Shown here piece after piece: positions 25,521-55,294 of a stretch of DNA of 64,000 nucleotides (the first letter of the stretch is position 1; each line of letters starts with the position of its first letter). A program made the position numbers and the translations under genes. Origin of the DNA: Candidatus Polarisedimenticolaceae bacterium (lineage in GTDB: Bacteria; Acidobacteriota; Polarisedimenticolia; Polarisedimenticolales; DASRJG01); assembly GCA_036275915.1 (NCBI GenBank), contig DASUCV010000022.1, positions 186,001 to 250,000 on the forward strand, in the 5' to 3' direction. The notes below the pieces were generated by a model. That model worked only from the letters and a program-made list of their open reading frames with translations. It did not search any database and was not told where the DNA came from.

Positions 25521-25535
25521 CGCCGCAACGTCCGC

Positions 25536-28995: not shown

Positions 28996-29071
28996 GCGGT
29001 GGAGGAATTTCGCACGCCACCTCGTCCGGCTCAAGACCGCGAGGGTCCGGTTTGTCCGTTGAATCGGCCCG

Positions 29072-29077
29072 TACACT
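29072..29077 (+). promoter_or_regulatory. Candidate -10 box TACACT for the tetraheme/NrfD operon
   Basis: TACACT lies 24 nt upstream of the ATG at 29102, with TTGTCC about 14-15 nt before it as a poor -35 candidate. The 106-nt gap between the two divergent cytochrome operons must hold both promoters. Confidence 0.35.
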
Positions 29078-29101
29078 CGCCCCGTCTCCAGAGGACATGC
29101 G

Positions 29102-29560: not shown

Positions 29561-29568
29561 GAGGCGTC

Positions 29569-30339: not shown

Positions 30340-30348
30340 GAGGAGGCG

Positions 30349-31879: not shown

Positions 31880-31977
31880 GGGAATGAGAGAAGGCAAGAC
31901 CCGCGCCATCGCGATGTGCGCCGCCGACCACACTTGTGCCGCCGGGTTCTGCGGGTTCTCACGCACTCCTGCGGGAT

Positions 31978-34722: not shown

Positions 34723-36672
34723 GTGCGCACCATCCGCGGCCGCGCGGCGTTCGTCGCGATGGCGGTCATGTTCGTGCTGCCTCCCGCCTTCGCCGCCGCC
34801 CCGCGAAAATTCGAAGCCAAGGCCTGCCTCGATTGCCACTCCGCCTTCGCCGAGACGCTGAAGCCGCTCTCCGTCTTCCACCCGGGGGTCAAGGACGCCC
34901 AGTGCGAGACCTGCCATCTGAGGCACGGGCTCGTCGGCAAGCTTCTCCTCAAGAAGGACGGGAGCGCGCTCTGCGTGTCCTGTCACTCGAAGGAGTCGAT
35001 CGGCCTCGACAAGCCGCACATCCATTCGGCGCTCAAGGGCGGTGAGAAGTGCACGACCTGTCACGAACCTCACGGCTCGAAGGCCCCGGCGCTGCTCCGC
35101 GCCGAAGGAGCGGAGACCTGCTACACGTGTCACGACCGCAAGCCGTTCGAGCGGAAGGACGTCCACGCCGTCCTGAAGACCACGGGATGCAAGGCCTGCC
35201 ACGACGCCCACAGCTCCGCCGAGCCCGCACTCCTGACGCGGCCCAAGAAGGACCTGTGCATCTCGTGCCACAAGCCCGAAGACGCGAGCTTCAAGAAGGC
35301 CCACGCCGACTACCCGGTCGCCTCCGCCGACTGCATGGTGTGCCACGATCCGCATTCCTCCGATCAGCCCAAGCTCATGAAGGGCTCCGCGCACGCGCCG
35401 GTCGTCTCCGGATCGTGCGACTCCTGCCATGCGGCGGCGGATGCTCCGAAGCCGTTCGAGGTGGTCAAGAAAGGCGCCGAGCTGTGCACGCAATGCCATG
35501 ACCTCGACGACCTGAAGGGGGGGGGAACGCACCTTCACGCACCGTTCGAGGCCGGCGACTGCGCCTCGTGCCACGATCCGCACGCCTCGCAGCAGGAGAA
35601 GCTGCTCGCGCGCCCGGGCGCCGAGCTCTGCGGCGCCTGCCACGCCGACGAGACGAAGAAATTCCCGTTCCCACACGCCGCCGTCGACGGTGGCTGCATC
35701 ACTTGCCATCGGCCCCACGCCGCGAGGCAAGAGAAGCTGCTCGACAAGCCCGTCGCCGACACGTGTATCGCCTGTCACGAAGACATCGGGACGGCGCGCC
35801 GGGCGAAGGTCCAACACGCGCCGGTCGCCGCGGGCGACTGCACGGCGTGCCACAACCCGCACGGTGCCGAAATCCCCAAGCTCCTGAAGGACCGTGCCGA
35901 CCGGTTGTGCTACGGCTGTCACGGCGATGCCGAGGTCGCTTTCGCGAAGAGCTCCGTCCATCAGCCGGTCCTCGCCGGCGAGTGCGCCTCCTGCCACCTC
36001 GTCCACGGCGGCCCCGAGCCGAAGCTCGTCAAGAAGACCGGTGCGGACCTGTGCGCGACGTGCCACGCCGCGCTCATGAAGGAAGACAAGAGCGAGACGA
36101 CCCATCCTCCGTTCGCCTCGGGCGATTGCGCGACCTGTCACGACCCGCACGCCTCGAGCCAACCGGGCATGGTCGTGGACGCGCAGGAGACGCTCTGTCT
36201 CGCGTGCCACTCGGAGCTCGACCCGTCGGCCAGGGGGGTCAAGAGCCGGCACGCGGCGTTCACCCAGGGCAAGTGCACGTCGTGTCACAGTCCGCACAAG
36301 GCCAAGCTCCCGAAGCTGCTCCTCGCGCAAGAGCCCGATCTCTGTCTGAGCTGTCACGGCCCGATCGGCGAGGCGCTCAAGGCCGGAAACACCCACCCAC
36401 CGGCGGAGAGCCAGTGCACGACGTGCCACCAGCCTCACTTCGCGTCCGAGCCGCGACTGCTCGTCGATCGCCAGCAATCGCTCTGCGCCGGGTGTCACGA
36501 CGTGAAGGAGGCCGCGTTCACGAAGGCCCACCTCGGCATCGACCCGTCGGTCATGAATTGCGTCCGCTGCCACGATCCTCACGGCTCGAAGGACCCGAAG
36601 CTGTTCAAGCCCGAGGTCCACGCGCCGTTCGCCGCGCGCTCGTGCGAGGAATGCCATGTCGTCAAGCGCTAG
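34723..36672 (+). CDS. Giant 26-heme c-type cytochrome of the paired-CXXCH family
   Basis: A 649-residue exported protein with a signal peptide (FVAMAVMFVLPPAFAAA) and 26 CXXCH motifs, one per 25 residues. The body repeats a unit: CxxCH-DPHxS-xxPKLL-xxxxxxLCxxCH, the paired CXXCH motif, with extra His residues (HAPV, HPPF) placed to act as distal ligands. It has no membrane anchor and would span the periplasm or lie outside the cell as a heme wire. GTG start with GGGAGG 6 nt upstream. The next gene begins inside its last codons (17-nt overlap), so the two are coupled. Confidence 0.94.
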   Translation: MRTIRGRAAFVAMAVMFVLPPAFAAAPRKFEAKACLDCHSAFAETLKPLSVFHPGVKDAQCETCHLRHGLVGKLLLKKDGSALCVSCHSKESIGLDKPHIHSALKGGEKCTTCHEPHGSKAPALLRAEGAETCYTCHDRKPFERKDVHAVLKTTGCKACHDAHSSAEPALLTRPKKDLCISCHKPEDASFKKAHADYPVASADCMVCHDPHSSDQPKLMKGSAHAPVVSGSCDSCHAAADAPKPFEVVKKGAELCTQCHDLDDLKGGGTHLHAPFEAGDCASCHDPHASQQEKLLARPGAELCGACHADETKKFPFPHAAVDGGCITCHRPHAARQEKLLDKPVADTCIACHEDIGTARRAKVQHAPVAAGDCTACHNPHGAEIPKLLKDRADRLCYGCHGDAEVAFAKSSVHQPVLAGECASCHLVHGGPEPKLVKKTGADLCATCHAALMKEDKSETTHPPFASGDCATCHDPHASSQPGMVVDAQETLCLACHSELDPSARGVKSRHAAFTQGKCTSCHSPHKAKLPKLLLAQEPDLCLSCHGPIGEALKAGNTHPPAESQCTTCHQPHFASEPRLLVDRQQSLCAGCHDVKEAAFTKAHLGIDPSVMNCVRCHDPHGSKDPKLFKPEVHAPFAARSCEECHVVKR

Positions 36673-37927
36673 GCTCGCGGTCGCGCTCGCGATGATGCTC
36701 CCGGCCGCGGCGCTCGCGGCCGACGACCCGACGGCGAAGTTCCACCTCAAGCCCGGGGCGGCGGGAACGATCTGCCTCGGCTGCCACGCCGATTTCCAGG
36801 ACGTTCTCAAGAGGCCCCACGTCCACACACCCGTGAAGGCCGGCAATTGCGCCGGATGTCACGACCCGCACGCCTCGACGCACGGCAAGCTCCTCGAGGA
36901 CGACCCCTCGAAGATCTGCGCCTCCTGCCACGGGTCGATGATCCCCGAAGGGGCGAAGAGCACGCACGCCGCCGTGGTGGAAGGCAAGTGCGTCTCCTGC
37001 CACGACCCGCACGGATCGCCGAACAAGGCGAACCTCGTCCGCGCGGGGAACGAGCTGTGCCTCGGGTGCCATGCGGACATCAAGGCCGGCCTCGACGCGG
37101 CGACACACAAGCACGGGCCGGTCACAGAGAGCTGCCTCAACTGCCACGACCCGCACGCGTCGAAGACCGCGCCGTCGCTCCTCGCGAAGGCACCGCCGGC
37201 GCTCTGCACCGGGTGCCACAACCCCTCGCAGCCCGGGTTCGGCAAGGCGCACATGGGGTATCCGGTGGCGGCGTCGAACTGCCTGTCGTGCCACGATCCT
37301 CACGGCTCGCCGAACAAGGGGATCCTCTGGGCGAGCGTCCACGCGCCGGTGGCGAACAAGCAGTGCGTCCAATGTCACGGCGCTCCTCCGGCCGCGGGTC
37401 CCGTCGTCGCCAAACGGCAAGCGCCGGAGCTTTGCCGCGGGTGCCACAACGCTCTCTTCGTCGAGATCGAGGGGAAGAAGCGCGTCCACGCACCGGTCCT
37501 CGAGCCGAAGTCGTGCGCGAACTGCCACACGCCGCATGCCTCCAAGGCCGACAAGCTCCTGCTCGCCCCGCAGAAGGCGCTGTGCGGAACTTGCCACGCT
37601 GATTCCGTGGCGCGGCAGGCCAAGTCGCTCGTCAAGCATCCCCCCGTCGACGAAGGCCAGTGCTCGACCTGCCATGCACCGCACGCCGCCGACGAGACGT
37701 TCCTCTTCGAGCAGGCGAACGTCATGGACCTCTGCGGCGCCTGCCACGACTGGAAGAACCACTCGGCCCATCCGATCGGGGAGAAGGCGATCGACAAGCG
37801 CAACCCGAACCTGACGGTGAGCTGCCTGAGTTGTCACCGCTCGCACGGCACCGCGTTCAAGTCGTTCCTCCATGCCGACCCGAAGAACGAGCTCTGCACC
37901 CAGTGCCACATCGAGCTCGCGAGGTGA
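36656..37927 (+). CDS. Sixteen-heme c-type cytochrome of the paired-CXXCH family
   Basis: A 423-residue exported cytochrome with a signal peptide (RLAVALAMMLPAAALAA) and 16 CXXCH motifs in the same paired repeat as its 26-heme neighbour (CHDPHASxxxxLL..LCxxCH). The two probably arose by repeat duplication and may contact each other. GAGGA lies 5-6 nt before the ATG, inside the previous gene. Localisation is periplasmic or extracellular; no lipobox is seen. Confidence 0.94.
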   Translation: MSSSARLAVALAMMLPAAALAADDPTAKFHLKPGAAGTICLGCHADFQDVLKRPHVHTPVKAGNCAGCHDPHASTHGKLLEDDPSKICASCHGSMIPEGAKSTHAAVVEGKCVSCHDPHGSPNKANLVRAGNELCLGCHADIKAGLDAATHKHGPVTESCLNCHDPHASKTAPSLLAKAPPALCTGCHNPSQPGFGKAHMGYPVAASNCLSCHDPHGSPNKGILWASVHAPVANKQCVQCHGAPPAAGPVVAKRQAPELCRGCHNALFVEIEGKKRVHAPVLEPKSCANCHTPHASKADKLLLAPQKALCGTCHADSVARQAKSLVKHPPVDEGQCSTCHAPHAADETFLFEQANVMDLCGACHDWKNHSAHPIGEKAIDKRNPNLTVSCLSCHRSHGTAFKSFLHADPKNELCTQCHIELAR

Positions 37928-37932
37928 GCGCG

Positions 37933-38796
37933 ATGAGGAAAGCCGCTTGGGTAGCGTTGCTCGCCTTCGGCAATTTACGGGCGGCCGAAGTCCTGAAGCT
38001 GCGTCCGACCGGGGTCCTCTACGCCGATGCTGCGGGGGTCGCGCTGAGCAAGCCCCAGGGGGTCGGGTGCGGCGTCGGCGCGTTCGTCGTCGCGGACAGC
38101 GGAAACGGCCGCGTGATCGAGTTCGAGATTTCGGGCGCCCTCGTGCGGACGACCACCGCGTTCGCCGTCAAGGAGATCGCCTACCCGATCCGCGCGGACC
38201 GCGGAAAGGACGGCACGCTGTTCGTCCTCGACGGGAAGTCGAGGCGGATCGGAAAGATCAAGGCCGACGGATCGTTCGGTGGCTGGATCGAGCTGGAAGG
38301 GGCGGTGATCGGTTTCGCCCTAGCGCCATCCGGGAACGTCTACGCCCTCGATCTCGCGGGCCACCGCGTCGTCGTCCTCGACCCGGCCGGTGCGGGGGCG
38401 CGCACGATCGCGCTTCCCGCCGACGCGCGTTTCCCGGTCGACGTCGCTCTCGGCTCCCACGAGACAGCGTACGTCGTCGACGCGGTGACGAAGCGCGTTT
38501 ACGGCGCTCGAGCCGAGGACAAGGAGTTCGCGCCGCTCGGGAAGTCGCTCGTCGAAGATCTCGACTTCCCCGGGGCCCTCGCGACCGACGGCGGCGGCCG
38601 CCTATTCGTCGCCGATCAGGACGGCGGCGGCATCGTCATCGTCGGCGCAGACGGGTCGTTCCGGGGCAGGCAGTCCGCCTTCGGGTGGAAGGACGGCTAC
38701 CTACGCTGGCCCTCCGGACTCTGCGTAAGCGGCAAGACGGTCGTCGTCGCGGACCGCGAGAATCAGCGCGTCGAGGTCTTTACCGTCGGAGAGTGA
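37933..38796 (+). CDS. NHL-repeat beta-propeller, exported, in cytochrome operon
   Basis: A 287-residue protein with a short signal peptide (AAWVALLAFGNLRAA) and six NHL-like blades (GAFVVADSGNGRVIEFE, GTLFVLDGKSRRIGKI, RLFVADQDGGGIVIV, KTVVVADRENQRVEVF). NHL propellers usually serve in protein binding. Placed 5 nt after the 16-heme gene, it may scaffold the giant cytochromes. Its 3' end overlaps the convergent parvulin gene by 34 nt. Confidence 0.88.
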   Translation: MRKAAWVALLAFGNLRAAEVLKLRPTGVLYADAAGVALSKPQGVGCGVGAFVVADSGNGRVIEFEISGALVRTTTAFAVKEIAYPIRADRGKDGTLFVLDGKSRRIGKIKADGSFGGWIELEGAVIGFALAPSGNVYALDLAGHRVVVLDPAGAGARTIALPADARFPVDVALGSHETAYVVDAVTKRVYGARAEDKEFAPLGKSLVEDLDFPGALATDGGGRLFVADQDGGGIVIVGADGSFRGRQSAFGWKDGYLRWPSGLCVSGKTVVVADRENQRVEVFTVGE

Positions 38797-40397
38797 ACCA
38801 GCGCCTTCAGCTCCGGCTCCGTCACGAGCATCTTCACCTGGGACGCGGCGCGTAGCTTCGCGACATAGGCTTCGAACGCCGCCTGTCGCTTCTCGCCGGA
38901 GAGCTTTCCTCGGATGCCACCTGCGACGTCGGCGAGGGGTTGGGTGTTGCCCGTGAAGAGATCGCGCACGAGCACGACCGTAGGCGGCCCCGTCGGCGGC
39001 GCGACCAGCCGGTATTCCCCCGCGTGCGCTCCGGCGAGCGACTCCTTGAGCGCCGGAGGCAACTCGTCACGGATGACCGGCGTGACGGGGATGCGAGCGT
39101 CCGCGGGCACGGCGGAGGGGTCGAGCCTCCCGTTCGCGTTCCCCTTCATCCACGCGACGTCGGCGCCCGCGCGGAGCTTCGCGAGCGCGGCCTCCGCCGC
39201 GGGGCGAGAATCGAACGCGACGGCGTCGAGCCGGATCATCTCCGGCTCCGTGAACTCCTTCTTGTGCGAGGTGTAATAGGCCTGGACCTCGGCATCGGTG
39301 ACGCTCACATCGGTCGCCAAGACCTTCCCGACGAACGCGCCGAAGAGCAGCTCGCGCCGCTTCTCCTCGAGCAGGGCGAGATAGGCAGGCTTCTTGTCGA
39401 GCCCGAGCCGCTTGGCCTCCTTGATGACGACGCGCTTGGCGATCAGGTCGTCGAGGATCTCCGACTTACGACGGTTGAGCTTCCCACGACCGCCGGCGTT
39501 CTCGGTGCCGTGGAACAGCCGTTTGCGGAGCGCGCCCGCGATCTCGCCGATCGTGATCGGCACCTCGCCCTGGATCGTCGCGACGGTGCGCTGGTCCTTG
39601 AGGAGAGCCTCGAAACCGGGCTCCTTCGCATCGAAATCGACCTGCAGCATCTTCCGATCGACCTTCGCGTATTTCGCGCGCAGCTCGTCGACGTAGGCGG
39701 AAATCGTCGCGGTCTGTGCTCGCTTCGCCACCTCGGCCTCGGCCTGCTCATGGAGCCCCGGGTCGTTCACTTGGCGCCGCTCGACGAGCCGCGTCACGGC
39801 GAACTGCTCACCCATCGCGTACGGCGCCGAGACCTGCCCCGGCTGGAGCTTGGCGAGGACGTCGATCACCTCCGGCTTCAGCTCGGACATCTTGATGAAC
39901 CCCTCGCCCTCGTCGATCTGCCCTTGGCCCTTGGCGGCGGCTTCTTTGATCGCGGCCTCGAAGTCCTTCGCCGCGACGAGCTGCTTCGCGTCCCCCTCTT
40001 TGGCCACGAGGATCGACCGCATCCGCACTTCGGTCGCCATCGCGCGCTCCATCGCCGCCACCGCCTTCGGGTCGGGCTTGATGGCGGCGATCCGCGTGGC
40101 GAACAGGCCGTCGCGCAACGTGTCCCGTTCGAAGACGCCGAGCTGATCCTTGACCTCGAGGGCGTCGTCGAGACCCATGCGGTCCGCCTCCTGCACGACG
40201 AGGGTCACCTTGATTCGCCGGTCGAGACCACGCCAGGGATCGGGATCGGACGCGCCGTCGAGATCGGACGCCAGTTGATGGAGCGTGATCGCGTCACCGT
40301 TGACGGTTGCGAGCTTGCGGTCCACGGGGGCGGTCGCCGAGGCTGCGGGGAGCGCGAGCACGAGGCCGACGAGCGCGGACGGGACGGAGCGGTTCAT
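38763..40397 (-). CDS. Periplasmic peptidyl-prolyl isomerase/chaperone with two parvulin-like domains
   Basis: A 544-residue exported SurA/PpiD-like protein. After a signal peptide and a SurA-type helical region (KLATVNGDAITLHQLASDLDGA) there is a degenerate parvulin domain (MRSILVAKEGDAKQL...LQPGQVSAPYAMGEQFAVTRLVERR, about 125-210), a second helical region, and another parvulin-like domain (about 350-480). It is the last gene of the barrel operon, where a dedicated chaperone for the outer-membrane barrel or exported cytochromes makes sense. Its start overlaps the previous stop by 4 nt. Confidence 0.88.
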   Translation of the reverse strand: MNRSVPSALVGLVLALPAASATAPVDRKLATVNGDAITLHQLASDLDGASDPDPWRGLDRRIKVTLVVQEADRMGLDDALEVKDQLGVFERDTLRDGLFATRIAAIKPDPKAVAAMERAMATEVRMRSILVAKEGDAKQLVAAKDFEAAIKEAAAKGQGQIDEGEGFIKMSELKPEVIDVLAKLQPGQVSAPYAMGEQFAVTRLVERRQVNDPGLHEQAEAEVAKRAQTATISAYVDELRAKYAKVDRKMLQVDFDAKEPGFEALLKDQRTVATIQGEVPITIGEIAGALRKRLFHGTENAGGRGKLNRRKSEILDDLIAKRVVIKEAKRLGLDKKPAYLALLEEKRRELLFGAFVGKVLATDVSVTDAEVQAYYTSHKKEFTEPEMIRLDAVAFDSRPAAEAALAKLRAGADVAWMKGNANGRLDPSAVPADARIPVTPVIRDELPPALKESLAGAHAGEYRLVAPPTGPPTVVLVRDLFTGNTQPLADVAGGIRGKLSGEKRQAAFEAYVAKLRAASQVKMLVTEPELKALVHSPTVKTSTR

Positions 40398-41479
40398 GGG
40401 TGAGCTTTCTCCAGTTGGACGAGGACGCCGCGGACGAGGTCGGAGGTCAGGAGGACGCCGGAGCGGACCCAGCGCGTGTCGAACCAGCGAAGGCCGTCGT
40501 CGCCTGCCGCGTAGCTGAACGACGACCAGACGACCCGGCGTGTACGTGCGTCGATCGCACGCGCCGAGAAACCGGAGGATGGGCTGCCCGGCGAGAGGCC
40601 GAGCGGGTCGTACTGCGTGATGCGGCCGGACACGACGATGTCGACGTCGAGGAGGGCGCGCACCGTATCGACCTGGGCGAGGGAGACTCCGTCCTCCTGG
40701 ATGACGCGGGTATCGAGGAGCGCCTGGCGAACCACCCCGGGCTCGACGATCTCGTACGCGGGGTCCTCGGAAAGGTGGCGTACGAACTGGAGGGCGAGCA
40801 GATCGCCGAGCCCGCGGTCGGGACCGTCCGTGAAGAACGGGAGCACCGCGACCCGCCGCCGCGCGGGGACGTCGCGCGGAGCCGTCGCCGCCAGCGAGCG
40901 CGGGAGGAACCGCTTCTCGACCTTCCTCGACGAGGACGGCCGGCCGCGCGCGATCGAGACGGCCAATTCCTCCGCCGCCATCGCGAGCAGGTCGTCGGCG
41001 TTCTTGCCGAGTCCGAGCCCGAAGGCACCCGGCTTCTCGAGCGCATGATGCGCCGTGCCGTCGGCCCACAAGATCGGCGCCTCCGGCGTGGCCCCGACGA
41101 GACGCGCGGTGAGCGCGACGCGCGGCATCTCGCCTTCGTGCCAGTCGTCCACCGCGGTCACGAGGATCGCCCCCGCGCCCGCCTCCGTGCCGAGCGCCGC
41201 GGCGATCGGCCCCGACACGCCGGACACCGATCGCTCCCGACGCGCCCGGAGGACCGCCTGGACCCGCTCGGCAGGCACGAGCGCGAAACCGCGCGCGACG
41301 AGCGCGGCCGCGAGGGCGTCCGTGATGCGGTCGACCGGCACCCCGGCGTTCAACGTGTCCGACGCGGGGAGGAGCGCGATCGGCACATGGCCCTCCGCGG
41401 CGTGGACTTCGGCCGCGAGGAGGAAGAGGAGTCCGGCGAGTAGGCCGGTCCTACTTGAAGAGCTTGTCCAGCAGGTCAC
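40394..41479 (-). CDS. Exported protein with two CsgG/TolB-N-like domains
   Basis: About 361 residues. Two repeats share the pattern of CsgG/TolB N-terminal folds: VPIALLPASDTLN...DRITDALAAALVARGFALVPAERVQAVL, and RRVAVLPFFTDGPDRGLGDLLALQFVRHL...YEIVEPGVVRQAL...DVDIVVSGRITQYD. The hydrophobic stretch LLAGLLFLLAAEVHAA is a signal peptide. The start is uncertain: GTG 41479, inside the preceding gene, is the only nearby start that keeps the signal peptide; it lacks a clear ribosome site. Role unknown; operon context suggests outer-membrane assembly or transport. Confidence 0.75.
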   Translation of the reverse strand: MTCWTSSSSRTGLLAGLLFLLAAEVHAAEGHVPIALLPASDTLNAGVPVDRITDALAAALVARGFALVPAERVQAVLRARRERSVSGVSGPIAAALGTEAGAGAILVTAVDDWHEGEMPRVALTARLVGATPEAPILWADGTAHHALEKPGAFGLGLGKNADDLLAMAAEELAVSIARGRPSSSRKVEKRFLPRSLAATAPRDVPARRRVAVLPFFTDGPDRGLGDLLALQFVRHLSEDPAYEIVEPGVVRQALLDTRVIQEDGVSLAQVDTVRALLDVDIVVSGRITQYDPLGLSPGSPSSGFSARAIDARTRRVVWSSFSYAAGDDGLRWFDTRWVRSGVLLTSDLVRGVLVQLEKAHP

Positions 41480-42032
41480 GGACCGCCTCGGTGGTGATCT
41501 CGTCCATCGGCTCACCGCCGCCGCCGAACAACCGGTCGGCCGCGGAGACGCCGCCTCTCGTCGAGGCCGCGCTCCAGACGACGCGGCCGGTCTGCGTCTC
41601 CATCATCTCGACGCTGATCGAGACGACGTTCGCCGACGCCGTTCCCGATCTCACCTCACCGTACTCCCGGACGACCCCGGTGATCACGGCGTCGACCTGG
41701 AGCAGCTTCCCCAGATTCGTACAGTCCTCGGCGGTCGGCGTCTGCGGCTTGGTGAGCCCCGCTCGGTCGATCCCGCGCGCGACTTCACCCGGAGGGAGGA
41801 CGTAGATCGAGCCCCCCGCTTGGAGCATCGTGCTGAAAACGTCGCGGACGCGCTCCCCGGCCGCAGGCGTCTGGGCCAGATTCGTGAAGGGGAGCACGCC
41901 GACCTTCTGGACGAGGCTGAAGTCCATCTTCGGGTCGTGAAAGGTGACCTCGGCCTTCCGGTGGGACGAGCAAGCGGAGACCCCGAACACGATCAAGACC
42001 GCCGTCGCGCGTGCCGTCCAGCTCGTTCTCAT
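41451..42032 (-). CDS. CsgG/TolB-N-like outer-membrane lipoprotein
   Basis: A 193-residue lipoprotein (lipobox VSAC) with one CsgG/GNA1162-like domain: VQKVGVLPFTNLAQ, FSTMLQAGGSIYVLPPGEVARGI, LQVDAVITGVVREYG, VEMMETQTGRVVWSA. Such proteins assist secretion or assembly at the outer membrane. It is 9 nt downstream of the barrel gene. With the next gene there are three copies of this domain in tandem order. Confidence 0.82.
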   Translation of the reverse strand: MRTSWTARATAVLIVFGVSACSSHRKAEVTFHDPKMDFSLVQKVGVLPFTNLAQTPAAGERVRDVFSTMLQAGGSIYVLPPGEVARGIDRAGLTKPQTPTAEDCTNLGKLLQVDAVITGVVREYGEVRSGTASANVVSISVEMMETQTGRVVWSAASTRGGVSAADRLFGGGGEPMDEITTEAVRDLLDKLFK

Positions 42033-42041
42033 CTCTTCCCC

Positions 42042-44207
42042 CTAGAATCCGAAATGCAAGGTTGCGGCCAGGATCGACTGGTGGGTCCGGCCTACGGTCG
42101 AGTCGGTCGTCAGGTCCTGGTACGAGGCTTCGACATAGGTTGCGCCGTTGACGTTCCAGCGGAGGTTCGGCGTGAAGGTGCGATCGACCTCGTCGCTGAA
42201 CGTATCTCGATTTTCGCTGTAATTCAGACTCAAGCGGAACGTTCCTCCCGGAAACGGCGACCAGCTCGCGGCGAAGGCGTCGATGGTCCGGTCCGCTTCG
42301 AGGGTGCGCTGCTCGAAGCGACGCGAGGCGAACAGGTAGATCGAAGGCACCGGGTCGTAGGCTACCGCGACTTCCTCGTAGCGAACGACCTGGGGACGGT
42401 CGGGCACGCCGGCGGCGTGGATCGTCGAGTCCCGATCGTCGAAGTTCAAGTTGACCGTCAGGGTCGGATGCGGCACGAACATCCAGCCGACGTGATACTG
42501 GGTCGTATCGGTCGAAGGTCCGTTGGTCACCTGGTTGTGGGACTGCCCCAGGCTCACGTTGAGATCGACCCCGTGGTAGATCGCGGCGTCCGAGTTCAGG
42601 AAGACCCCGATGCTGTCGGTCGCGAGGCCGCTCCGGTCTTCGTTCGTCCCGCTCAGGGTGAGGCTGTTCCGGAGCGTGTCCAGGGGATTGGCGTACACGG
42701 ACGCCGTGTAAACGTACGCGGACCGTCGGCCGCCCTGGTCTTCCCCGTCCTCGCGGGTCACGCGCGAGAAGAGCGACCAGACGTCCGTGAACTGCCTCTG
42801 GAACGAGAGCCCGTTCGAGAAGGTCCAGATCGTTGGGCTTCCGGTGGTCGTCGCGGCGTAGAGCCCCGTCTCGTAATAAAATCCCACGTCCTTGAGTAGA
42901 CGCAGACGCGAATTCGCCTGGAGCAGATTCCGTGTGCGGGTCGTCGTGCTGCTCGCCGATCCGGAGGGTTGCGCGAGGAAGAGCTCGAGCTCGGTGACCA
43001 GGATGGTTGGGTACGACGAAGCCGAGGGGACCGACGGGATCAGCGGCCGGACGACGACCTTCAGGTAGCGCGTGTTGACCGCCGGGAAGCGCAGCTCGAA
43101 CCGGGTGTCGAACGGCCCGAACGGTGCCGTGGCGACCGTCGCCCGAGGCAGCCAGTTCGTCCCGTCGTCGCTCGTCCAGATCCCCCACGAGAAGCGGGAG
43201 GAGATCTCGGGCGGCAGGTCGCGGTCGACCCAGACGCGCGCCACGTTGATGCCGACCGGAAGGCCGAGGTCGGCGCCGAAATTGCGCGGCCGCGAGTCCC
43301 CGGCCGGCGGCGGCAGTCCGAGGTTGATGCCCGTTCCGACCAGCGTGTTCCCGTCGATGAGGGCCGGGAGGGGTGCGAGGGTTCCGTCGGCCGGCGTGTC
43401 GTCGATGACGAAGCCGCCCGTGACCGGGAAGATCGGAATCAGAAGCTCGCCGGTACCGGCCGAGTCGACGGTCACCTTCCGCCAAGCTCCGTTCCAGTTC
43501 GCGCTCACGTCCCAGCGGTCGTCGAAGAAGAGGTCGCCGAAACGCGCTTCGCCCGAATGCGTCATCGTCGTGAACTCGGTGGAGCGGATCCGATCGTCGT
43601 CGCGCTCGAGCAGCCCGCGATAGTAGAGGCGGGTCGAAGGCACGGGAGTGTAGTCGGAGGTGAGCCGAAATATGTCCTGGGTGACGTCCACCAAGGTCTT
43701 CGTCGCGTCGCGATCCTCGGTGCGCGAAAGCTCCGCGCGCAGCGACGGAAGTTCCGCGGGATACCAGCCGGCGACCCCGAGGAAGGTGTCACGCGTGAGT
43801 TGAAAGGTCGCCAGCCCCTCGGCGCGCAGCGTGTCCTCGTTCCGGTACCACGACAGCTCGCCGATCACGTATTGCGAGCGGAGCGCGAAACGCGCGAACG
43901 GCCGGAGCCGGGTCGTGGCGACGTCGCGCGAGAATCCCGAGTCGGCGAGGGTGCCGTCGGTGCGCTCGTAGAATCCGCCGATCTGCATGAGGAGGTTGGG
44001 GAACAGACGGCGTGTCCACGTGGCGTTCGCCCGCCGCGTGAACGCCGTGCCGTTCTCCTCCACGGACAACGCCGCGGGTGGCTGAAAGGTGAACGCCGAG
44101 TCGGAATAGGAAAGCTCGACGTACCCGGTGAGATCGCCGGCGAAGGACGGCCTCAGAAAGGCTCCCGCGGCGACGAGGACGACGGCAACCGTCCGCCTCC
44201 GGGTCAT
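42042..44207 (-). CDS. Outer-membrane beta-barrel with internal discoidin-like domain, candidate electron-conduit porin
   Basis: A 721-residue exported protein (signal LVAAGAFLRPSFA) made of alternating beta strands rich in Tyr/Arg/Asp and ending in HFGF, the C-terminal Phe recognised by the BAM machinery. Residues about 295-408 break the pattern and resemble an F5/8 type C (discoidin) fold: VARVWVDRDLP, FSWGIWTSDDGTNW, RYLKVVVRPL, ILVTELELF. The size and setting recall MtrB/OmbB-type porins of porin-cytochrome conduits, but it shares no short diagnostic motif that I can name. Overlaps the YVTN lipoprotein gene by 4 nt. Confidence 0.82.
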   Translation of the reverse strand: MTRRRTVAVVLVAAGAFLRPSFAGDLTGYVELSYSDSAFTFQPPAALSVEENGTAFTRRANATWTRRLFPNLLMQIGGFYERTDGTLADSGFSRDVATTRLRPFARFALRSQYVIGELSWYRNEDTLRAEGLATFQLTRDTFLGVAGWYPAELPSLRAELSRTEDRDATKTLVDVTQDIFRLTSDYTPVPSTRLYYRGLLERDDDRIRSTEFTTMTHSGEARFGDLFFDDRWDVSANWNGAWRKVTVDSAGTGELLIPIFPVTGGFVIDDTPADGTLAPLPALIDGNTLVGTGINLGLPPPAGDSRPRNFGADLGLPVGINVARVWVDRDLPPEISSRFSWGIWTSDDGTNWLPRATVATAPFGPFDTRFELRFPAVNTRYLKVVVRPLIPSVPSASSYPTILVTELELFLAQPSGSASSTTTRTRNLLQANSRLRLLKDVGFYYETGLYAATTTGSPTIWTFSNGLSFQRQFTDVWSLFSRVTREDGEDQGGRRSAYVYTASVYANPLDTLRNSLTLSGTNEDRSGLATDSIGVFLNSDAAIYHGVDLNVSLGQSHNQVTNGPSTDTTQYHVGWMFVPHPTLTVNLNFDDRDSTIHAAGVPDRPQVVRYEEVAVAYDPVPSIYLFASRRFEQRTLEADRTIDAFAASWSPFPGGTFRLSLNYSENRDTFSDEVDRTFTPNLRWNVNGATYVEASYQDLTTDSTVGRTHQSILAATLHFGF

Positions 44208-45571
44208 TGCGCATCCACGAACCGCAAAGCGACCGGATCGGGACCAACCGCCGCACGCGTCTGGAGCCGCCGCCCGGAGTTGCCGAAGAGGTCGGCTTCC
44301 CGGGGTCCGGCGACCAGAACGCCGAGGGCGTTTCCTTCGTTCTCGAGGGCGAGGTAGACGGCGTCGCCGGAGAGGGTGATCTCGTCGACCGGGAGGAACG
44401 AGCCGGGATCGAAGACCTCGACCTTTCGCTGGCCGGCACGCGCGAGAAGCACGCGTCCCGTCTTCGGCTCGACCTCGAGCGCTCGGGCGCCGTTGCCGAC
44501 GTACACCCGCCGAAGGACCGAGAGCGACGGCGCATCGACGACCAGGAGATACGGCGAGTCGCCGTGCGCGACGTAGAGGAATTCGCTCGAGCGTCCGCCG
44601 AGCCGCGCCTGGACGGGCCCCGCGTCGGTTGCGATCGTCCCCGCCACGGTGCGCGCGTTCACGTCGACGACGGTGACCGCCGTGCCGCGCTCGGCGACGA
44701 CGTAGGCTTTGCGGCCGTCCGGCGCGATCACGACGCTCACCGGGCGCGCGCCGACGGCGACACGCTCGGTCTCGACCGCCGCGATCGTGTCGACGAAACT
44801 CACGGTGTCGGAGCCGGCATTGGCGACGAGGAGCGTGCGACCGTCAGGGGTCACGGCGACGTCGGCAGGGGCGTCGCCACCCCGGAGGATGACGCGCTCG
44901 CGCACGCGCTCCTCGAGGAGGTCGACCACCGCGACACCGTCGTCCCCCCTGAGGGCGACGTAGGCACGGAGGTGCGCAACGTCGATCGCGATGCCTCCGG
45001 GTCCGCGCCCCACGGGGAGGACTTGGGCGACGCGGCCGGAACGCTTGTCGAACAGCTCGAGCGCATCCCAGGAGGCCACGCTGACGAGCCCGAGAAGGCC
45101 GCTCGCGATCGCTGGAGGTTTGGCGAGCACCAGAGGCGGCGCGGGAGCGCCGGGCGTCGCCGCGGGCGGCGCGCCGGCGAGGAGGACGGTTCCCATGTCC
45201 GCGATCGCGAGGAACGGGAACGGAACGTCGACCGCCGTCTCGGGACCGGTGTGCAGCTCGAGGCCGGCATACGGGCCGGGCGGGATCCAGCCCGTGAGCC
45301 ATGCGTGCTCCGCGTCGGGCCGGGATCCGGCCGGGATCGAGGCGACCTCGAGCGGTGCCAGGCCACCGTCTTCGCGGCGAGCGAACACGGCGTCCGCCGG
45401 CGGCGCGCCGCCGCGCGCGAACACGAACAAGCTCGCAGCGCCCGGCGCCCTCGCGGGATGGGCGTCTCCCGTCCCGCGATGCGCGCCCGCGCATCCCGCG
45501 AGCGCACACGCGAACGCCGCCGCGCCGACCGCAGAGCGTAACCGCACCCGCTTTCTCCCGCCGCGCATCAT
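44204..45571 (-). CDS. YVTN-type beta-propeller lipoprotein
   Basis: A 455-residue lipoprotein (lipobox ALAGC) with seven or so YVTN/YNCE blades after residue 145 (AYVALRGDDGVAVVDL, LLVANAGSDTVSFVDT, AYVVAERGTAVTVVDV, FLYVAHGDSPYLLVVD). It is the first gene of the barrel operon and follows the terminator at 45587-45620. It probably binds protein partners at the outer membrane. ATG 45571 and ATG 45568 are both possible; neither has a ribosome site. Confidence 0.85.
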   Translation of the reverse strand: MMRGGRKRVRLRSAVGAAAFACALAGCAGAHRGTGDAHPARAPGAASLFVFARGGAPPADAVFARREDGGLAPLEVASIPAGSRPDAEHAWLTGWIPPGPYAGLELHTGPETAVDVPFPFLAIADMGTVLLAGAPPAATPGAPAPPLVLAKPPAIASGLLGLVSVASWDALELFDKRSGRVAQVLPVGRGPGGIAIDVAHLRAYVALRGDDGVAVVDLLEERVRERVILRGGDAPADVAVTPDGRTLLVANAGSDTVSFVDTIAAVETERVAVGARPVSVVIAPDGRKAYVVAERGTAVTVVDVNARTVAGTIATDAGPVQARLGGRSSEFLYVAHGDSPYLLVVDAPSLSVLRRVYVGNGARALEVEPKTGRVLLARAGQRKVEVFDPGSFLPVDEITLSGDAVYLALENEGNALGVLVAGPREADLFGNSGRRLQTRAAVGPDPVALRFVDAQ

Positions 45572-45586
45572 AGGGGATCGACAAAA

Positions 45587-45620
45587 GCAAAAAGGGGGCC
45601 GATCGAGATCGGCCCCCCTT
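45587..45620 (-). terminator. Strong rho-independent terminator after the OmcS-like gene
   Basis: On the minus strand GATCGGCCCCC ends an 11-bp perfect stem (loop of 2-4 nt) and is followed by TTTTTGCTTTT. It lies 30 nt after the stop of the hexaheme gene and 16 nt before the lipoprotein start, cleanly separating the NHL-OmcS unit from the barrel operon. Confidence 0.9.
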
Positions 45621-45650
45621 CGGGTCACGACGCCCTCGGGCGTCAGCGGC

Positions 45651-46922
45651 CTAGTCTTGAGCGTGGCACTTGTTGCAGAGCACGCGCTGATACGTGGCGA
45701 ACTGCGTCACGGGCCGATCGTAGTAGGCAGCCTGCATCTCGGCGCCCAAGCGGCCGCGCGAGAACTGCGGAACCGTCGGGGTCGTATCGGTGCCCGGATA
45801 CTGGCCGTTGTAGACCATGAACTCGCCTTCCATGTTCCATCGGAGCATCTCGGGGAAACCCGACGCGTGCGCGCGGTGGCAGGAGAGGCAGGTGACCTGG
45901 TCGCTTCCCAACGGACCGCCGACCGCCGTGTTGTCGTTCTTCGCAAGGGTCGCCAGGAGTGCATAGCTCGTGACGGTCGACCCCTCCGCGAACGGAACGA
46001 GCGAGTTGAACGAGCTCGCGCTCGTGCCGGTGAGATTACCGCTCATCACGTAGGCGTTGTAGGTGTCGGCGACGCCGGAGAGGGCCACGTCCGTCGGGTG
46101 AACGTAGTTGCCGCTCGAGTGCATGTCGCCGTGGCAGGTCGCGCACCAGGTGCCCCAGTTCTCGTGGCCCGACTGGGTGATGCCGGCGGTCGACCCGTAC
46201 GCGGTGCGGACCATGTTCGTCGCTTCGGACTGGTTGTAGGTTGCGGGGGTGACGGCCGGCGGGTTGCCCTGGAAGGTCACGCCATCGGTCGTGTAGCCGT
46301 TACCGTTCAGGAGGCGGTAGACGCCCACTGCCTGGCCGGCGGCCGGGGTGACGCTGTTGTTGTAGGAGCCCGATCCGATGATGGCGGCGCCGGTCGGCGA
46401 GATCGTGCCGTCGCTCAGGCGGCGGTACTTGCCGTGCGGGTTATGGCAGCTCGCGCACCCGAGTTGAGCGGAGGGGTACGTTCCGCCCGGCGAGGTCGGG
46501 TTATCGGTGTCGACGGTGTAGCCGAAACCGGTACCCGACGCGACGATGTTGTGTCCGTGGGTCTGCCCGGCCTCGGTCGTTGTCGTCCCGCGAACCGTGA
46601 ACGTGTACGTCTTCTTGAGCCAACCGAAGTCACCGCCGGGCGTGCGCTGACGCGGCGCAGTCCCCGACGGCATGTCGGCATCCGCGGTGCTGATGTGGTA
46701 GCTGCTCGGCGTCGTGAGCCCCGACTGCTGGTGGCAGCTCAGGCAGGTCGAGCTCGTGTCGGGCCCGATGAGCAGGTGGGTGCCCGCGGGATCCGGAGAG
46801 TGCATGCTGTGGCACCCTCCGCACTCGGCCACGCCGCCGGAGTGGAACGCATAGACGTTGCCGAAGGCAACGAGCGCCACCGCCGCGGTGAGGGCCACTA
46901 GACCGAATCGGACGGATCTCAT
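45651..46922 (-). CDS. omcS: OmcS-like hexaheme cytochrome, predicted nanowire subunit
   Basis: A 423-residue exported cytochrome with six CXXCH motifs (CGGCH, CLSCH, CASCH, CATCH, CLSCH, CNKCH). After the signal peptide the mature chain starts FHSGGVAECGGCHSMH, nearly identical to Geobacter OmcS, and keeps the histidine at mature position 16 that in OmcS filaments ligates a heme of the next subunit. Further matches are SSYHISTADADMPSGTAP, GGDFGWLKKTYTF, CHNPHGKYRRLSDG, CLSCHRAHASGFPEM and the C-terminus YQRVLCNKCHAQD. The start ATG 46922 has AAGGAGG 5 nt upstream. It follows an NHL gene by 14 nt and ends in a strong terminator. Confidence 0.95.
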   Translation of the reverse strand: MRSVRFGLVALTAAVALVAFGNVYAFHSGGVAECGGCHSMHSPDPAGTHLLIGPDTSSTCLSCHQQSGLTTPSSYHISTADADMPSGTAPRQRTPGGDFGWLKKTYTFTVRGTTTTEAGQTHGHNIVASGTGFGYTVDTDNPTSPGGTYPSAQLGCASCHNPHGKYRRLSDGTISPTGAAIIGSGSYNNSVTPAAGQAVGVYRLLNGNGYTTDGVTFQGNPPAVTPATYNQSEATNMVRTAYGSTAGITQSGHENWGTWCATCHGDMHSSGNYVHPTDVALSGVADTYNAYVMSGNLTGTSASSFNSLVPFAEGSTVTSYALLATLAKNDNTAVGGPLGSDQVTCLSCHRAHASGFPEMLRWNMEGEFMVYNGQYPGTDTTPTVPQFSRGRLGAEMQAAYYDRPVTQFATYQRVLCNKCHAQD

Positions 46923-46936
46923 CGCTTCCTCCTTGA

Positions 46937-47884
46937 TCATGACGCGGCGGCGGTCGCGAAGACCGCGACGCCGCCGTTCCCTAGCTGGGAGACGTACACC
47001 TTGCCGGACGCGCCGACGGCGAGATCGCCGGGGCGGACGAGACGCTTCGCGGCCGCTCCGCTCTGCCCGAACTCGCGGACGAACCGAAACGACTCGTCGA
47101 AGACCATGACGACGTTGCGCAGGCGGTCGGCGACGAAGATGTTCCCGCGATCGTCCGCTGCCAGCCCGGAGACGATCCCGAAGCCGCCGGCGCTCGAACC
47201 GACGCGGCCGAACGTCGCGACCGTGCCATCCGCCGCGACCTGGTAGACCTTGAATTGCGTCGGCACCGCGAAGAGCACCGAGCCGGACGCTTCGAACGCG
47301 AATCCGCCGAGCCCGAAGCTGCCGCGATCGCCGGAGGGAATTCCGGCGACCGCGGCCAGATCCAGCGTGCGGATCCAGGCTCCATCGGGGCTGAAGGAGG
47401 CGGCGAGCATCTGATCGGTGCTGACGAGCCAGATCGCTCCGGCCCGGAGCGACATGCGGTTGGGGTGGAACCCGGCCAGCTCCGCCGGAACGGCGAGCGT
47501 GAGCGGATCTTGCATCCGGCCGCGGTAGTCGGCGCGAACGATCGACCAAGGAGCGCCGTCGACGCCCTGGCGGTGAACGAGGAGCAATAGATCGCCGCGG
47601 GCGTCGACCGCCAGGCTCGTGAGCTGCCAGGCGGAGGGATCGACGACGAACCGGTAGACCTGCATCCCGGATGCGTTGAAGATCCGGACCTCGTTCGCGA
47701 AGATCGTGTACGTCTCGTCGTGGGCCGCGTCGGCGACCACGAGGGCGTCGGAGCACGGCACCGGGCCGGTGAAGTCCGACAGTTCGTAGAGTCTTCCGGC
47801 TTCCACGGGTCCCGCAGCCCGCCCGACCGAGCACACCGCCCCGAGGAGGATGGCGGCGGCGGCGTGCATTGGGCGGCATCTCAT
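46937..47884 (-). CDS. NHL-repeat beta-propeller, exported, upstream of the OmcS-like gene
   Basis: About 315 residues with a signal peptide (HAAAAILLGAVCSVGRAAG) and NHL blades (YTIFANEVRIFNASG, SGSVLFAVPTQFKVYQV, NIFVADRLRNVVMVFD, KVYVSQLGNGGVAVFA). It may be an assembly or anchoring factor for the cytochrome encoded next. The start is either ATG 47884 or ATG 47869; both would lie very close to the transcription start predicted from the sigma-54 element at 47897-47912. Confidence 0.85.
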   Translation of the reverse strand: MRCRPMHAAAAILLGAVCSVGRAAGPVEAGRLYELSDFTGPVPCSDALVVADAAHDETYTIFANEVRIFNASGMQVYRFVVDPSAWQLTSLAVDARGDLLLLVHRQGVDGAPWSIVRADYRGRMQDPLTLAVPAELAGFHPNRMSLRAGAIWLVSTDQMLAASFSPDGAWIRTLDLAAVAGIPSGDRGSFGLGGFAFEASGSVLFAVPTQFKVYQVAADGTVATFGRVGSSAGGFGIVSGLAADDRGNIFVADRLRNVVMVFDESFRFVREFGQSGAAAKRLVRPGDLAVGASGKVYVSQLGNGGVAVFATAAAS

Positions 47885-47896
47885 GCCCTTCTTCAC

Positions 47897-47912
47897 AGCA
47901 ACCGCGATGCCA
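47897..47912 (-). promoter_or_regulatory. Sigma-54 promoter of the NHL-OmcS-like operon
   Basis: TGGCATCGCGGTTGCT on the minus strand matches TGGCAY-N5-TTGCT with GG-N10-GC spacing. The predicted start near 47886 leaves only 2 nt before ATG 47884 or 17 nt before ATG 47869, so either the mRNA is leaderless or the site is not the true promoter. Confidence 0.5.
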
Positions 47913-48079: not shown

Positions 48080-50857
48080 ATGACGCCTCTCCTCTACCTC
48101 CTCGTGTTCTTCTCGGGCGCGGCCGCGTTGATCTACGAGGTCGCCTGGGTGCGATCGCTGAGTCTGGTGTTCGGCGGCTCGCACCTCGCCGTGACGGTCG
48201 TGCTGTCCGTGTACATGGGAGGCATCGCGCTCGGAGGATGGCTCCTCGGCCGCCGTGCCGAGAGCGCCACGCGTCCGCTTCGGCTCTTCGGCCTCCTCGA
48301 GCTGGGCATCGGGATCTCCGCCGTCGCGGTGCTCGGCCTGCTCATGGCCTATCCGTTTCTCTACGAGCCGCTCGCGCGCCTCGCCGAGACCGATCGCGCG
48401 TGGCTGACGTTCCTTCGCACGCTGTTCTCCTCGGCAGCGCTCCTGGTTCCGACGACGCTCATGGGCGGGACGCTGCCGGCGCTCGAGCGTGCCGCGCCGG
48501 GTCGGCTCGCCGCGATCTACGGGATCAACACGCTCGGCGCGGTCGCGGGCGCCCTCGGCTCCGGCTTTCTCCTCCTTCCGGTCCTCGGGGTCCGGGCGAC
48601 GATCTTCGCCGCGGTCGCCACGAACGCCGCCGTCGGCCTCGCCGCGATCGCGCTCGCCGCGCGGTTCAGGACCGGGGTTGCGGCTCCGTCACATGCTCTT
48701 GCGGAACTCGAGCTGACTCCCGTCGTCGTCGGGATCGGTGTCAGCGGCTTCTGCGCGCTCGGGTACGAGGTTCTGTGGACGCGGATGCTCACGCTCGTCC
48801 TGGGGACGTCGGTCTACGCCTTCACGATCATGCTCGCGGCGTTCCTGTTCGGCATCGGCCTCGGCAGCCATGCCGAAGCGTGGTTCAAGGCGAGGCCGCT
48901 GAGGGCGTTCGGGATCGTTCAGCTCGTGATCGGAGTGTCGGCGCTCGGCGTCACCTTCCTCATGCGCGACCTGCCGTCGCACGCCGTCCGCCTGCAGGGC
49001 GCCTTCTCGGGGACCGTCTCGACGGAATTCGCCGCGCGCCAGGCGGCGAGCTTCGCGATCGCGTTCGCCACCATGTCGGTCCCCGCGTTCTTCATGGGCG
49101 TCGCGTTCCCGCTTGCGGCGGAGAATGCGCCGGTGAGGCGCGTGCTCACCGTGAACACGGTCGGCGCGATCCTCGGAGCCGCGGCGAGCGGATTCGTCTT
49201 GATCCCGGCGTTCGGCATCGAGCGCGCGCTCCAGATGCTCGTGACCGTCAACCTGGGCGTCGGCGCCGTGGTGCTGACCCACGCCTGGCGCGGCAGGCCG
49301 GCGGCGCGCGCGGCGACCCTCGCGACGGCGGCGGTCGTGGCCGCGCTCGCCATCGTCCCTGGCTGGGGCCGAGCGTGGAACGAAAAGTACTTCGCGATCT
49401 TTCGCAATACGCAGCGCAACGCCTTCGACTCGGCCGAGCGGATCGAAGACGCCCTCGAGAACACCGACGTCCTCTACTACGCTGAGGGCGCGAACGAGAT
49501 CATCAGCGTCATCCAGCCACGCGGCGGCTGGCAATCGTTCATCGTCAACGGCCGGCCGGAAGCGACGACATCGCCGATGGACATGCAGTGCCAGCGCACG
49601 CTCGGACATCTTCCGATGCTCCTCCACCCGCACCCGCGGCGCGTGTTCGTCCTCGGCACCGGCACCGGAATGACCCTCGGCGCGACGTCGGTCCACCCGG
49701 GAGTCGAATCGATCGTGCTCGCCGAGATCGAGCCGAAGGCCCTCGTGGCCGCACGCACGTTCGCTGCCTGGAACCACCGCGTTCTCGACGATCCGAGGCT
49801 CCGCATCGTCTTGAACGACGGCCGCAATTACCTCGCGACGACCGCCGAGACCTTCGATGTCGTCACCGCCGACCCGATCCATCCCTGGTCCGGCGGTGCG
49901 GCGTACCTCTACACCGCGGAGTATTTCCGCACCGTGGCGCGGCACCTGAACCCGGGCGGCATTGCGTGCCAGTGGCTGCCGATCTACGAGCTGACGCCGG
50001 CCGACCTCGCGATGGTCGTGCGCACGTTCACCGAGAGCTTCCCTCACACGATGATCTGGCTCACCCACTACGATGCGGAGATCGTCGGGGCGAACGCGCC
50101 GATCGTCCTCGACGAGGAAGCCCTGGCCCGGCGCCTCGCCGTTCCGGCGGTGGCCCAGGATCTCGCTGCAGTCGAGATGGGCACGGTCGACGACTTCCTG
50201 AGCTTCTTCCTCGCCGGCGACCGCGGCGCGCGCGCGTTCGCCGCCGCGGGGCGCGTCAACACCGACGACAACCTCGCACTCGAGTTCTCGGCCCCGCGCT
50301 CGATGGGCGTGGCGGAGATCATGGGAGACAACGTGCGGGCGCTCGCCGCGATCCGCGAGCCCGTTCCCGTCCCCGGTGCCACACGGCTCGACGAAGCGGC
50401 GAAACTCTACGATCCCGCGCACGCCCTCTTCCTCTGGGGCGAGTCGGACGGCGCCCCGTTCCAGGAGCTTCAAGCCAAGCTGGCGACGTCGTTCCCGGAG
50501 TACGCGCCGTTCCGCTTCCTCGAGAGGGAGGAGCGGGCGCGTCTCGCCGCGATTCCGCGGGCGATCGACGAGGCGACGTTCCGCGTGCGCACGCCCGTGG
50601 GCGCCACGCGGACGCTGACGGTGTCGGCGGTGACGATGCGGATCGGAGAGCGGCGTGCGGTCGCCATGTTCGTCGACAACGAGACGCACACGATCTTCGG
50701 CCAGCGTTACTTCGACGGCTCCGCGGAGACGCTCGACCGCGACGTCGCCGGCTTCGCCGGCACGACGCTCGGCGACTTCCGCGCTTCGTACGCGCGCCTC
50801 GGCGACGTACCGGCCGAGGCGGCGGTGGTCGACGCGTTCAAGTCCCGCCTCCGGTAA
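48080..50857 (+). CDS. Membrane-fused spermidine synthase-like protein
   Basis: A 925-residue protein. Residues 1-440 form about 12-14 membrane helices in two similar halves (SGAAALIYEVAWVRSLSLVFG and SGFCALGYEVLWTRMLTLVLG start each half). Residues about 460-720 are a polyamine aminopropyltransferase-like Rossmann domain (VFVLGTGTGMTLGATSVHP, NDGRNYLATTAETFDVVTADPIHPW, YTAEYFRTVARHLNPGG). A C-terminal region of about 200 residues follows. Such fusions are common in this kind of bacterium; the real substrate is unknown. TAGCAT lies 12 nt before the ATG and there is no ribosome site. Confidence 0.9.
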   Translation: MTPLLYLLVFFSGAAALIYEVAWVRSLSLVFGGSHLAVTVVLSVYMGGIALGGWLLGRRAESATRPLRLFGLLELGIGISAVAVLGLLMAYPFLYEPLARLAETDRAWLTFLRTLFSSAALLVPTTLMGGTLPALERAAPGRLAAIYGINTLGAVAGALGSGFLLLPVLGVRATIFAAVATNAAVGLAAIALAARFRTGVAAPSHALAELELTPVVVGIGVSGFCALGYEVLWTRMLTLVLGTSVYAFTIMLAAFLFGIGLGSHAEAWFKARPLRAFGIVQLVIGVSALGVTFLMRDLPSHAVRLQGAFSGTVSTEFAARQAASFAIAFATMSVPAFFMGVAFPLAAENAPVRRVLTVNTVGAILGAAASGFVLIPAFGIERALQMLVTVNLGVGAVVLTHAWRGRPAARAATLATAAVVAALAIVPGWGRAWNEKYFAIFRNTQRNAFDSAERIEDALENTDVLYYAEGANEIISVIQPRGGWQSFIVNGRPEATTSPMDMQCQRTLGHLPMLLHPHPRRVFVLGTGTGMTLGATSVHPGVESIVLAEIEPKALVAARTFAAWNHRVLDDPRLRIVLNDGRNYLATTAETFDVVTADPIHPWSGGAAYLYTAEYFRTVARHLNPGGIACQWLPIYELTPADLAMVVRTFTESFPHTMIWLTHYDAEIVGANAPIVLDEEALARRLAVPAVAQDLAAVEMGTVDDFLSFFLAGDRGARAFAAAGRVNTDDNLALEFSAPRSMGVAEIMGDNVRALAAIREPVPVPGATRLDEAAKLYDPAHALFLWGESDGAPFQELQAKLATSFPEYAPFRFLEREERARLAAIPRAIDEATFRVRTPVGATRTLTVSAVTMRIGERRAVAMFVDNETHTIFGQRYFDGSAETLDRDVAGFAGTTLGDFRASYARLGDVPAEAAVVDAFKSRLR

Positions 50858-55292: not shown

Positions 55293-55294
55293 GG

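Follow-up and report, generated by a model that had tools for sequence, protein, structure and literature searches.

A probable OmcS-type cytochrome filament subunit with an osc gene cluster in a genome of the Acidobacteriota

Genes at the locus

The window, by which we mean the whole stretch of 64,000 nucleotides that was analysed, contains a gene for an OmcS-type hexaheme cytochrome c, flanked by genes that resemble the osc cluster of Geobacter. The features of the locus are listed here with the evidence for each.

46937..47884, minus strand: NHL-repeat protein, directly upstream of the omcS-like gene (PF01436 at the cut-off; synteny; start codon chosen by eye)
45651..46922, minus strand: OmcS-type hexaheme cytochrome c, predicted filament subunit (phmmer; 12/12 axial histidines; AlphaFold2 model)
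45590..45621, minus strand: intrinsic terminator with a 14-pair stem and T-rich tail, directly 3' of the omcS-like gene (fold and scan)
44204..45571, minus strand: OscD-type beta-propeller lipoprotein (YncE/YVTN propeller matches; synteny)
42042..44207, minus strand: OscE-type predicted outer-membrane barrel (synteny; 22-39% identical homologues in >25 loci)
41451..42032, minus strand: OscF-type PelC/GNA1162-like lipoprotein (PF05643; phmmer to PelC)
40394..41515, minus strand: OscG-type protein with two PelC/CsgG-like domains (AlphaFold2, Foldseek, profile and Pfam; start codon uncertain)
38763..40397, minus strand: OscH-type prolyl isomerase chaperone (PF13145, E 3.7e-23; syntenic homologues at 26-36%)
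37924..38796, plus strand: second NHL-repeat protein, encoded at the end of the osc block (PF01436, E 8.4e-17; follows the 16-heme gene in other loci)
36656..37927, plus strand: OscJ-type 16-heme cytochrome (16 CXXCH; up to 55% identity to syntenic homologues)
34723..36672, plus strand: OscI-type 26-heme cytochrome (26 CXXCH; mostly 44-51% identity to syntenic homologues)

The letters D to J were given to these genes by position and family. On the minus strand the order is NHL, OmcS-like, D, E, F, G and H, and on the plus strand 26-heme (I), 16-heme (J) and second NHL gene, this second half meeting the OscH gene tail to tail. The start of the OscH gene overlaps the stop of the OscG gene (ATGA), and all reading frames of the cluster are intact.

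The original prediction had placed the cytochrome gene at 45651-46922. These limits are right, but the strand had to be corrected: an in-frame stop interrupts the plus-strand reading, and the gene reads 46922..45651 on the minus strand, giving a product of 423 amino acids. An AAGGAGG ribosome-binding site lies immediately 5' of the ATG. Residues 1-25 (MRSVRFGLVALTAAVALVAFGNVYA) form a Sec-type signal peptide and the mature protein begins at F26, so that cleavage falls before FHSGG as in OmcS.

The cytochrome resembles OmcS in sequence and predicted fold

In a phmmer search against all PDB chains, OmcS (6ef8) was the sole real match (E 7.8e-108), with residues 26-423 of the query aligned to residues 1-407 of the chain, i.e. 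over the full length. Identity in the family alignment amounts to 56% (211 of 379 aligned residues), and the six CXXCH motifs stand in the same register. The mature start FHSGGVAECGGCHSMH equals that of OmcS, FHSGGVAECEGCHTMH, at 14/16 positions and the C-terminal end YQRVLCNKCHAQD equals YQRALCNKCHAKD at 11/13, which bears out the near-identity of both ends that had been predicted. As far as sequence comparison goes, this likeness to OmcS is far beyond chance.

An AlphaFold2 model of the heme-free monomer, built on 50 sequences, reached a mean pLDDT of 88.5 and a pTM of 0.87. Compared with the PDB, its sole match below E 0.001 was again 6ef8 (E 7.7e-41, TM 0.84/0.87, rmsd 2.9), and the protein as modelled has the OmcS fold. 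The mature N-terminus (residues 26-41) is among the most conserved 16-mers, and the 10-residue blocks over residues 21-40 have pLDDT values of 49-70 in the monomer model. Such poor order in a conserved segment would be expected if it were ordered by the next subunit.

Together with the ligands described below, these results uphold the assignment of the protein as an OmcS-type cytochrome. It shares with OmcS of Geobacter sulfurreducens (GSU2504; 6ef8, 6nef) its length, its fold, the six CXXCH motifs and the full set of 12 axial histidines, His16 among them; it differs in a loop after the first heme that is about 12 residues shorter, and the 56% identical protein, known here from sequence and model, falls in a sister clade. 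The genome encodes one OmcS-like protein and no second copy, in contrast to Geobacter with OmcS, OmcT, OscC and OmcJ.

His16 is conserved, and is the only ligand ever lost

His16 was reportedly identified by Wang et al. in 2019 as the inter-subunit ligand of heme 5 in OmcS filaments. Of the 12 histidine ligands in OmcS, 11 are provided by the own chain and one, on heme 505, by the neighbouring molecule (PMC6584659). Exactly six histidines outside the CXXCH motifs are conserved throughout, or nearly throughout, 55 aligned sequences (OmcS His2, 16, 110, 147, 257 and 335), and these were taken as the distal ligands from their conservation, not from coordinates. All six are present in the window protein, giving 12/12 axial histidines in total. 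The retention of His16, as claimed from the sequence at the outset, was thus verified, the residue being precursor His41 in the alignment, and the heme-ligand alignment proposed as a check recovered the complete family-conserved set.

Additional copies, taken from Geobacteraceae genomes and from further relatives, brought the alignment to 83 sequences. All 12 axial histidines are kept in 62 of these, and the other 21 lack His16 alone, while their remaining 11 ligands are kept without exception; His16 is therefore the sole axial ligand ever lost in this set. On a tree computed without the columns around His16, the loss took at least two changes, all inside the Geobacteraceae paralogues, whereas His16 is kept in 33/33 members of the clade of the window protein. 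That the fold can dispense with His16 alone fits an inter-subunit role of this residue, and its exclusive and repeated loss makes its presence in the window protein informative rather than automatic.

The paralogues without His16 occur in L036, L043, L047, L110 (p3), L111-L117, L119, L120, L122, L123 and L125-L130, and they may be caps or anchors of filaments, or relatives that do not polymerise. Conversely, the OmcT/OscC-like copy L110_p1 of a Geobacteraceae genome keeps His16 and the full ligand set. Since OmcT/OscC-like paralogues retain it too, His16 is, as judged from the alignment, necessary evidence for an OmcS-type filament and not specific to OmcS.

The genomic context is that of the Geobacter osc cluster

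An eight-gene block, GSU2500-GSU2493, adjoins the OmcS-like gene GSU2501 in G. sulfurreducens and has been linked to OmcS maturation and secretion (PMC12977616). The operon was named osc, and passages of PMC13194489 that cite Shen et al. 2025 propose a function in folding for OscH, in secretion for OscEFG and in morphology for OscD. The gene oscI corresponds to GSU2495 (PMC13194489), the product of which has about 70 kDa and 26 hemes (PMC12977616). OmcT and OscC (GSU2501), both hexaheme relatives of OmcS, belong to the same operon in Geobacter.

For comparison we searched 48 genomes of the family, G. sulfurreducens not being among them, in which the best OmcS was 72% identical to that of G. 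sulfurreducens; the genome encoding it (L110, Geobacteraceae) served as stand-in. Its genes lie on one strand in the order NHL, OmcS, second OmcS-like, D, E, F, G, H, I, J, NHL and third OmcS-like. The NHL gene directly upstream of OmcS in this close Geobacteraceae genome is matched in the window, and the window cluster is homologous to a Geobacteraceae cluster gene by gene (propeller, barrel, two lipoprotein-like proteins, prolyl isomerase, 26-heme, 16-heme and NHL protein). In Geomonas and Geomobilimonas, too, the upstream NHL gene and the downstream barrel operon keep this order. The original prediction had held that the context, with an NHL gene upstream and a barrel operon downstream, differs from that in Geobacter. 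This has to be reversed: it is Geobacter's own osc cluster, which strengthens the interpretation as a filament system. The differences from osc of Geobacter are that the 26-heme, 16-heme and NHL half lies on the opposite strand and that a strong terminator separates the subunit gene from the machinery genes.

The order NHL, OmcS-like, D, E, F and G is shared by 21 named loci; the MAGs and isolates that contain them bear the labels Nitrospirota, Acidobacteriota, Rokuibacteriota, Desulfobulbaceae, Geobacteraceae and others. In most loci, Geobacteraceae included, an NHL homologue immediately precedes the OmcS-like gene. In two Acidobacteriota MAGs (L002, L009) the OmcS-like gene precedes the NHL gene and the rest of the osc order is kept.

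A terminator separates subunit and machinery genes

Folding of positions 45580-45650 (71 nt) gave a minimum free energy of -39.6 (z -4.0), with 0/200 shuffles as good. A hairpin followed by a T tail lies no more than 200 nt from the stop in 22/49 loci compared to 10/245 shuffles, which were mononucleotide shuffles and hence a lenient control; the loci with such a terminator are mostly in the clade of the window protein. Termination at this point would let subunit mRNA exceed machinery mRNA, and thereby allow more subunit than machinery, as a polymer requires. The terminator is consistent with polymerisation and no proof of it.

We weighed, and set aside, a sigma-54 promoter upstream of the operon: the one site found (47898-47912, minus strand, 1 mismatch) lies just 5' of the NHL gene, at a spacing to the start codon that looks too short. 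A histidine kinase and a sigma-54 response regulator are encoded at 31936-34667 (plus strand), just before the 26-heme gene. Regulation of the cluster involving the sigma-54-like site and this pair is possible.

OscF and OscG resemble the export lipoprotein PelC

The lipoprotein PelC forms dodecamers and acts together with the PelB barrel. The OscF-type protein matched the PelC chain of PelBC (9h80) with a phmmer E of 1.8e-8. The AlphaFold2 model of the OscG-type protein (pLDDT 84.9) consists of two repeats of one alpha/beta unit, and Foldseek against the PDB returned PelC proteins as best matches (5t0z, E 1.1e-7), then GNA1162, FlgT, LpoB and CsgG. An OscG profile matched PelC with E 7.6e-5, and CsgG Pfam matches were found in 9/27 OscG members. 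Both proteins thus resemble PelC of the PelBC exopolysaccharide exporter (9h80, 5t0z). As PelC works as a ring with the PelB barrel, a ring-plus-barrel channel is a reasonable expectation for the cytochrome, and the likeness suggests, by analogy, a PelBC-like export channel. The two systems differ in their client, which is a heme protein for osc and a polysaccharide for PelBC, and osc encodes a pair of PelC-like proteins, in one of which the domain is duplicated.

Host genome and distribution of the family

The genome containing the window comprises 4.53 Mb and is 98% complete with 1.6% contamination. Because the assembly contains no SSU rRNA (16S) gene, we used RpoB for its placement. The protein is 80% identical, over its full length, to RpoB of the uncultured Acidobacteria MAG L024; the next best long match was 67%, to the Acidobacteria MAG L019, and most others were at about 55-66% on long stretches. 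In addition, a genome of the same order as that of the window (G002) encodes an OmcS-like protein identical to that of L024. Taken together, these matches assign the window to the Acidobacteriota, and the earlier suggestion that the host belongs to another phylum than Geobacter is confirmed.

OmcS-like genes are sparse among the relatives of this genome: 15 of the 120 genomes searched had any match, and about six a strong one. The family tree divides into two halves (support 100/100, midpoint root), one with OmcS and all sampled Geobacter paralogues, the other with the window protein and sequences of Acidobacteriota, Rokuibacteriota, Schekmanbacteria and some Nitrospirota. Lying outside the half of OmcS and its paralogues, the window gene is best read as co-orthologous to the Geobacter set (OmcS, OmcT-like and OscC-like) rather than to OmcS specifically, and its product is no closer to OmcT or OscC than to OmcS. 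It is 72% identical to a Nitrospirota protein versus about 55% to one from an Acidobacteriota genome of its own order. While these identities hint at gene transfer between phyla, they do not establish it. Trees that group the window protein with the same-order sequences (p-AU 0.28) or with all Acidobacteriota (p-AU 0.08) were not rejected, and horizontal transfer of the omcS-like gene is not claimed here.

Discussion

By sequence or model, the locus encodes a protein with six c-type hemes, the OmcS fold and all six conserved distal histidines, His16 among them, next to nine companion genes that are homologous to the Geobacter cluster. We consider it likely that the gene encodes the subunit of an OmcS-type, His16-linked cytochrome filament in the Acidobacteriota, equipped with its own osc assembly cluster; judging from these genes, this bacterium probably makes OmcS-like wires. 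Sec would carry the apo-protein across the inner membrane; it would be loaded with heme and fold with the aid of the prolyl isomerase OscH. It would leave the cell through a channel of the OscE barrel and the PelC-like lipoproteins OscF and OscG, and outside His16 of one subunit would ligate heme 5 of its neighbour. The hemes, stacked end to end, would then form a wire for respiratory electrons, which the 26-heme and 16-heme cytochromes may supply. As the sole OmcS-like protein of the genome, the cytochrome would be the natural client of the osc machinery.

Against a filament stands that only OmcS of G. sulfurreducens is proven to polymerise and that the OmcT/OscC-like copy of L110 shares its ligand set; polymerisation of OmcT and OscC is unproven, unlike that of OmcS (PMC12977616). 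Moreover, the window protein branches in a deep clade (100/100) apart from that of OmcS. It could instead correspond to OscC (GSU2501) and act, in concert with the osc machinery, as a hexaheme relay in the periplasm or embedded in the outer membrane, forming no long extracellular filaments. The hexaheme cytochrome of Geobacter that always accompanies the eight-gene block is of the GSU2501 type and not OmcS (PMC12977616), and OscC is listed as periplasmic (PMC13194489). The window gene lies directly before the osc block, like the OmcS-like gene next to oscD in L110, and its product does not group with OmcS specifically in the tree. However, it is the only OmcS-like gene in a genome that has kept the secretion genes, its mature N-terminus is closer to that of OmcS (FHSGGVAEC) than to that of the OscC/OmcT-like copy L110_p1 (FHDGGAGEC), and OscC itself might form a wire. 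On balance, a relay of this kind appears unlikely.

Even less probable, in our view, is a monomeric or short-oligomer cytochrome at the outer surface that would serve to reduce metals or for exchange with partner cells, its His16 being bound to its own heme or to another protein. No filament has been observed, and the physiological role of OmcS filaments, in Fe(III) oxide reduction as in extracellular electron transfer in vivo, is disputed (PMC11077965). Yet no ligand but His16 is lost independently of all the others, which would be expected of a residue that serves something besides the fold of its own subunit, and the companion machinery is retained. The patchy occurrence of OmcS-like genes in the phylum could also raise the suspicion of an inactive gene or cluster, or of a contaminating contig misbinned into an Acidobacteriota genome, with any match in 15/120 genomes and about six strong ones. 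We regard this as barely credible: the frames are intact throughout, the barrel, OscG, 26-heme, 16-heme and second NHL proteins are each most similar to those of the same-order genome L024, completeness is high at low contamination (98% and 1.6%), and a topology in which the window gene groups with its own order was not rejected (p-AU 0.28).

The filament interpretation may, quite tentatively and at a level that we would call doubtful, be extended to His16 as a polymerisation switch. Proteins that keep it would then be wires in many phyla, this Acidobacteriota included, exported through a PelBC-like ring and barrel, and the His16-less paralogues would end or anchor the OmcS filament, their heme 5 being open to the His16 of a neighbour and none being available to donate. 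Independently of this, loss of His16 offers a simple sequence test for setting aside paralogues unable to donate the inter-subunit ligand, and in part answers the problem of annotation raised in PMC12977616.

That OmcS has homologues across diverse bacteria was reported before (PMC10954620, PMC12954529), and the osc cluster is known as well. Three points are new in this work: His16 alone among the axial ligands is ever lost in the 83 sequences, OscF and OscG of the export genes resemble PelC, and the subunit gene is followed by a strong terminator. A complete OmcS subunit with assembly cluster is now placed in the Acidobacteriota, and the cluster as well as the cytochrome is common to MAGs that bear the labels Nitrospirota, Rokuibacteriota, Schekmanbacteria, Deltaproteobacteria and others. 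A single OmcS-like gene is seen at many such loci, which avoids the paralogue problem of Geobacter and makes them clean cases for the ancestral osc client.

Further genes surround the cluster. The window is rich in genes for respiratory electron transfer, with a TPR-heptaheme protein, a cytochrome b561 with an 11-heme NapC-like protein and an Fe-S and NrfD pair at 23583-31512, and, at 53518-55300, another cytochrome b561 next to a multiheme protein. Adjoining the cluster at 48080-50857 (plus strand) is the gene for a large spermidine-synthase-like protein (PF01564), the start region of which looks membrane-spanning. Its homologues occur in the osc neighbourhood of several phyla at 45-60% identity (L002, L003, L007, L016, L020, L026, L050 and L056) and in three further cases at 27-28%; in L007 the gene lies between F and G.
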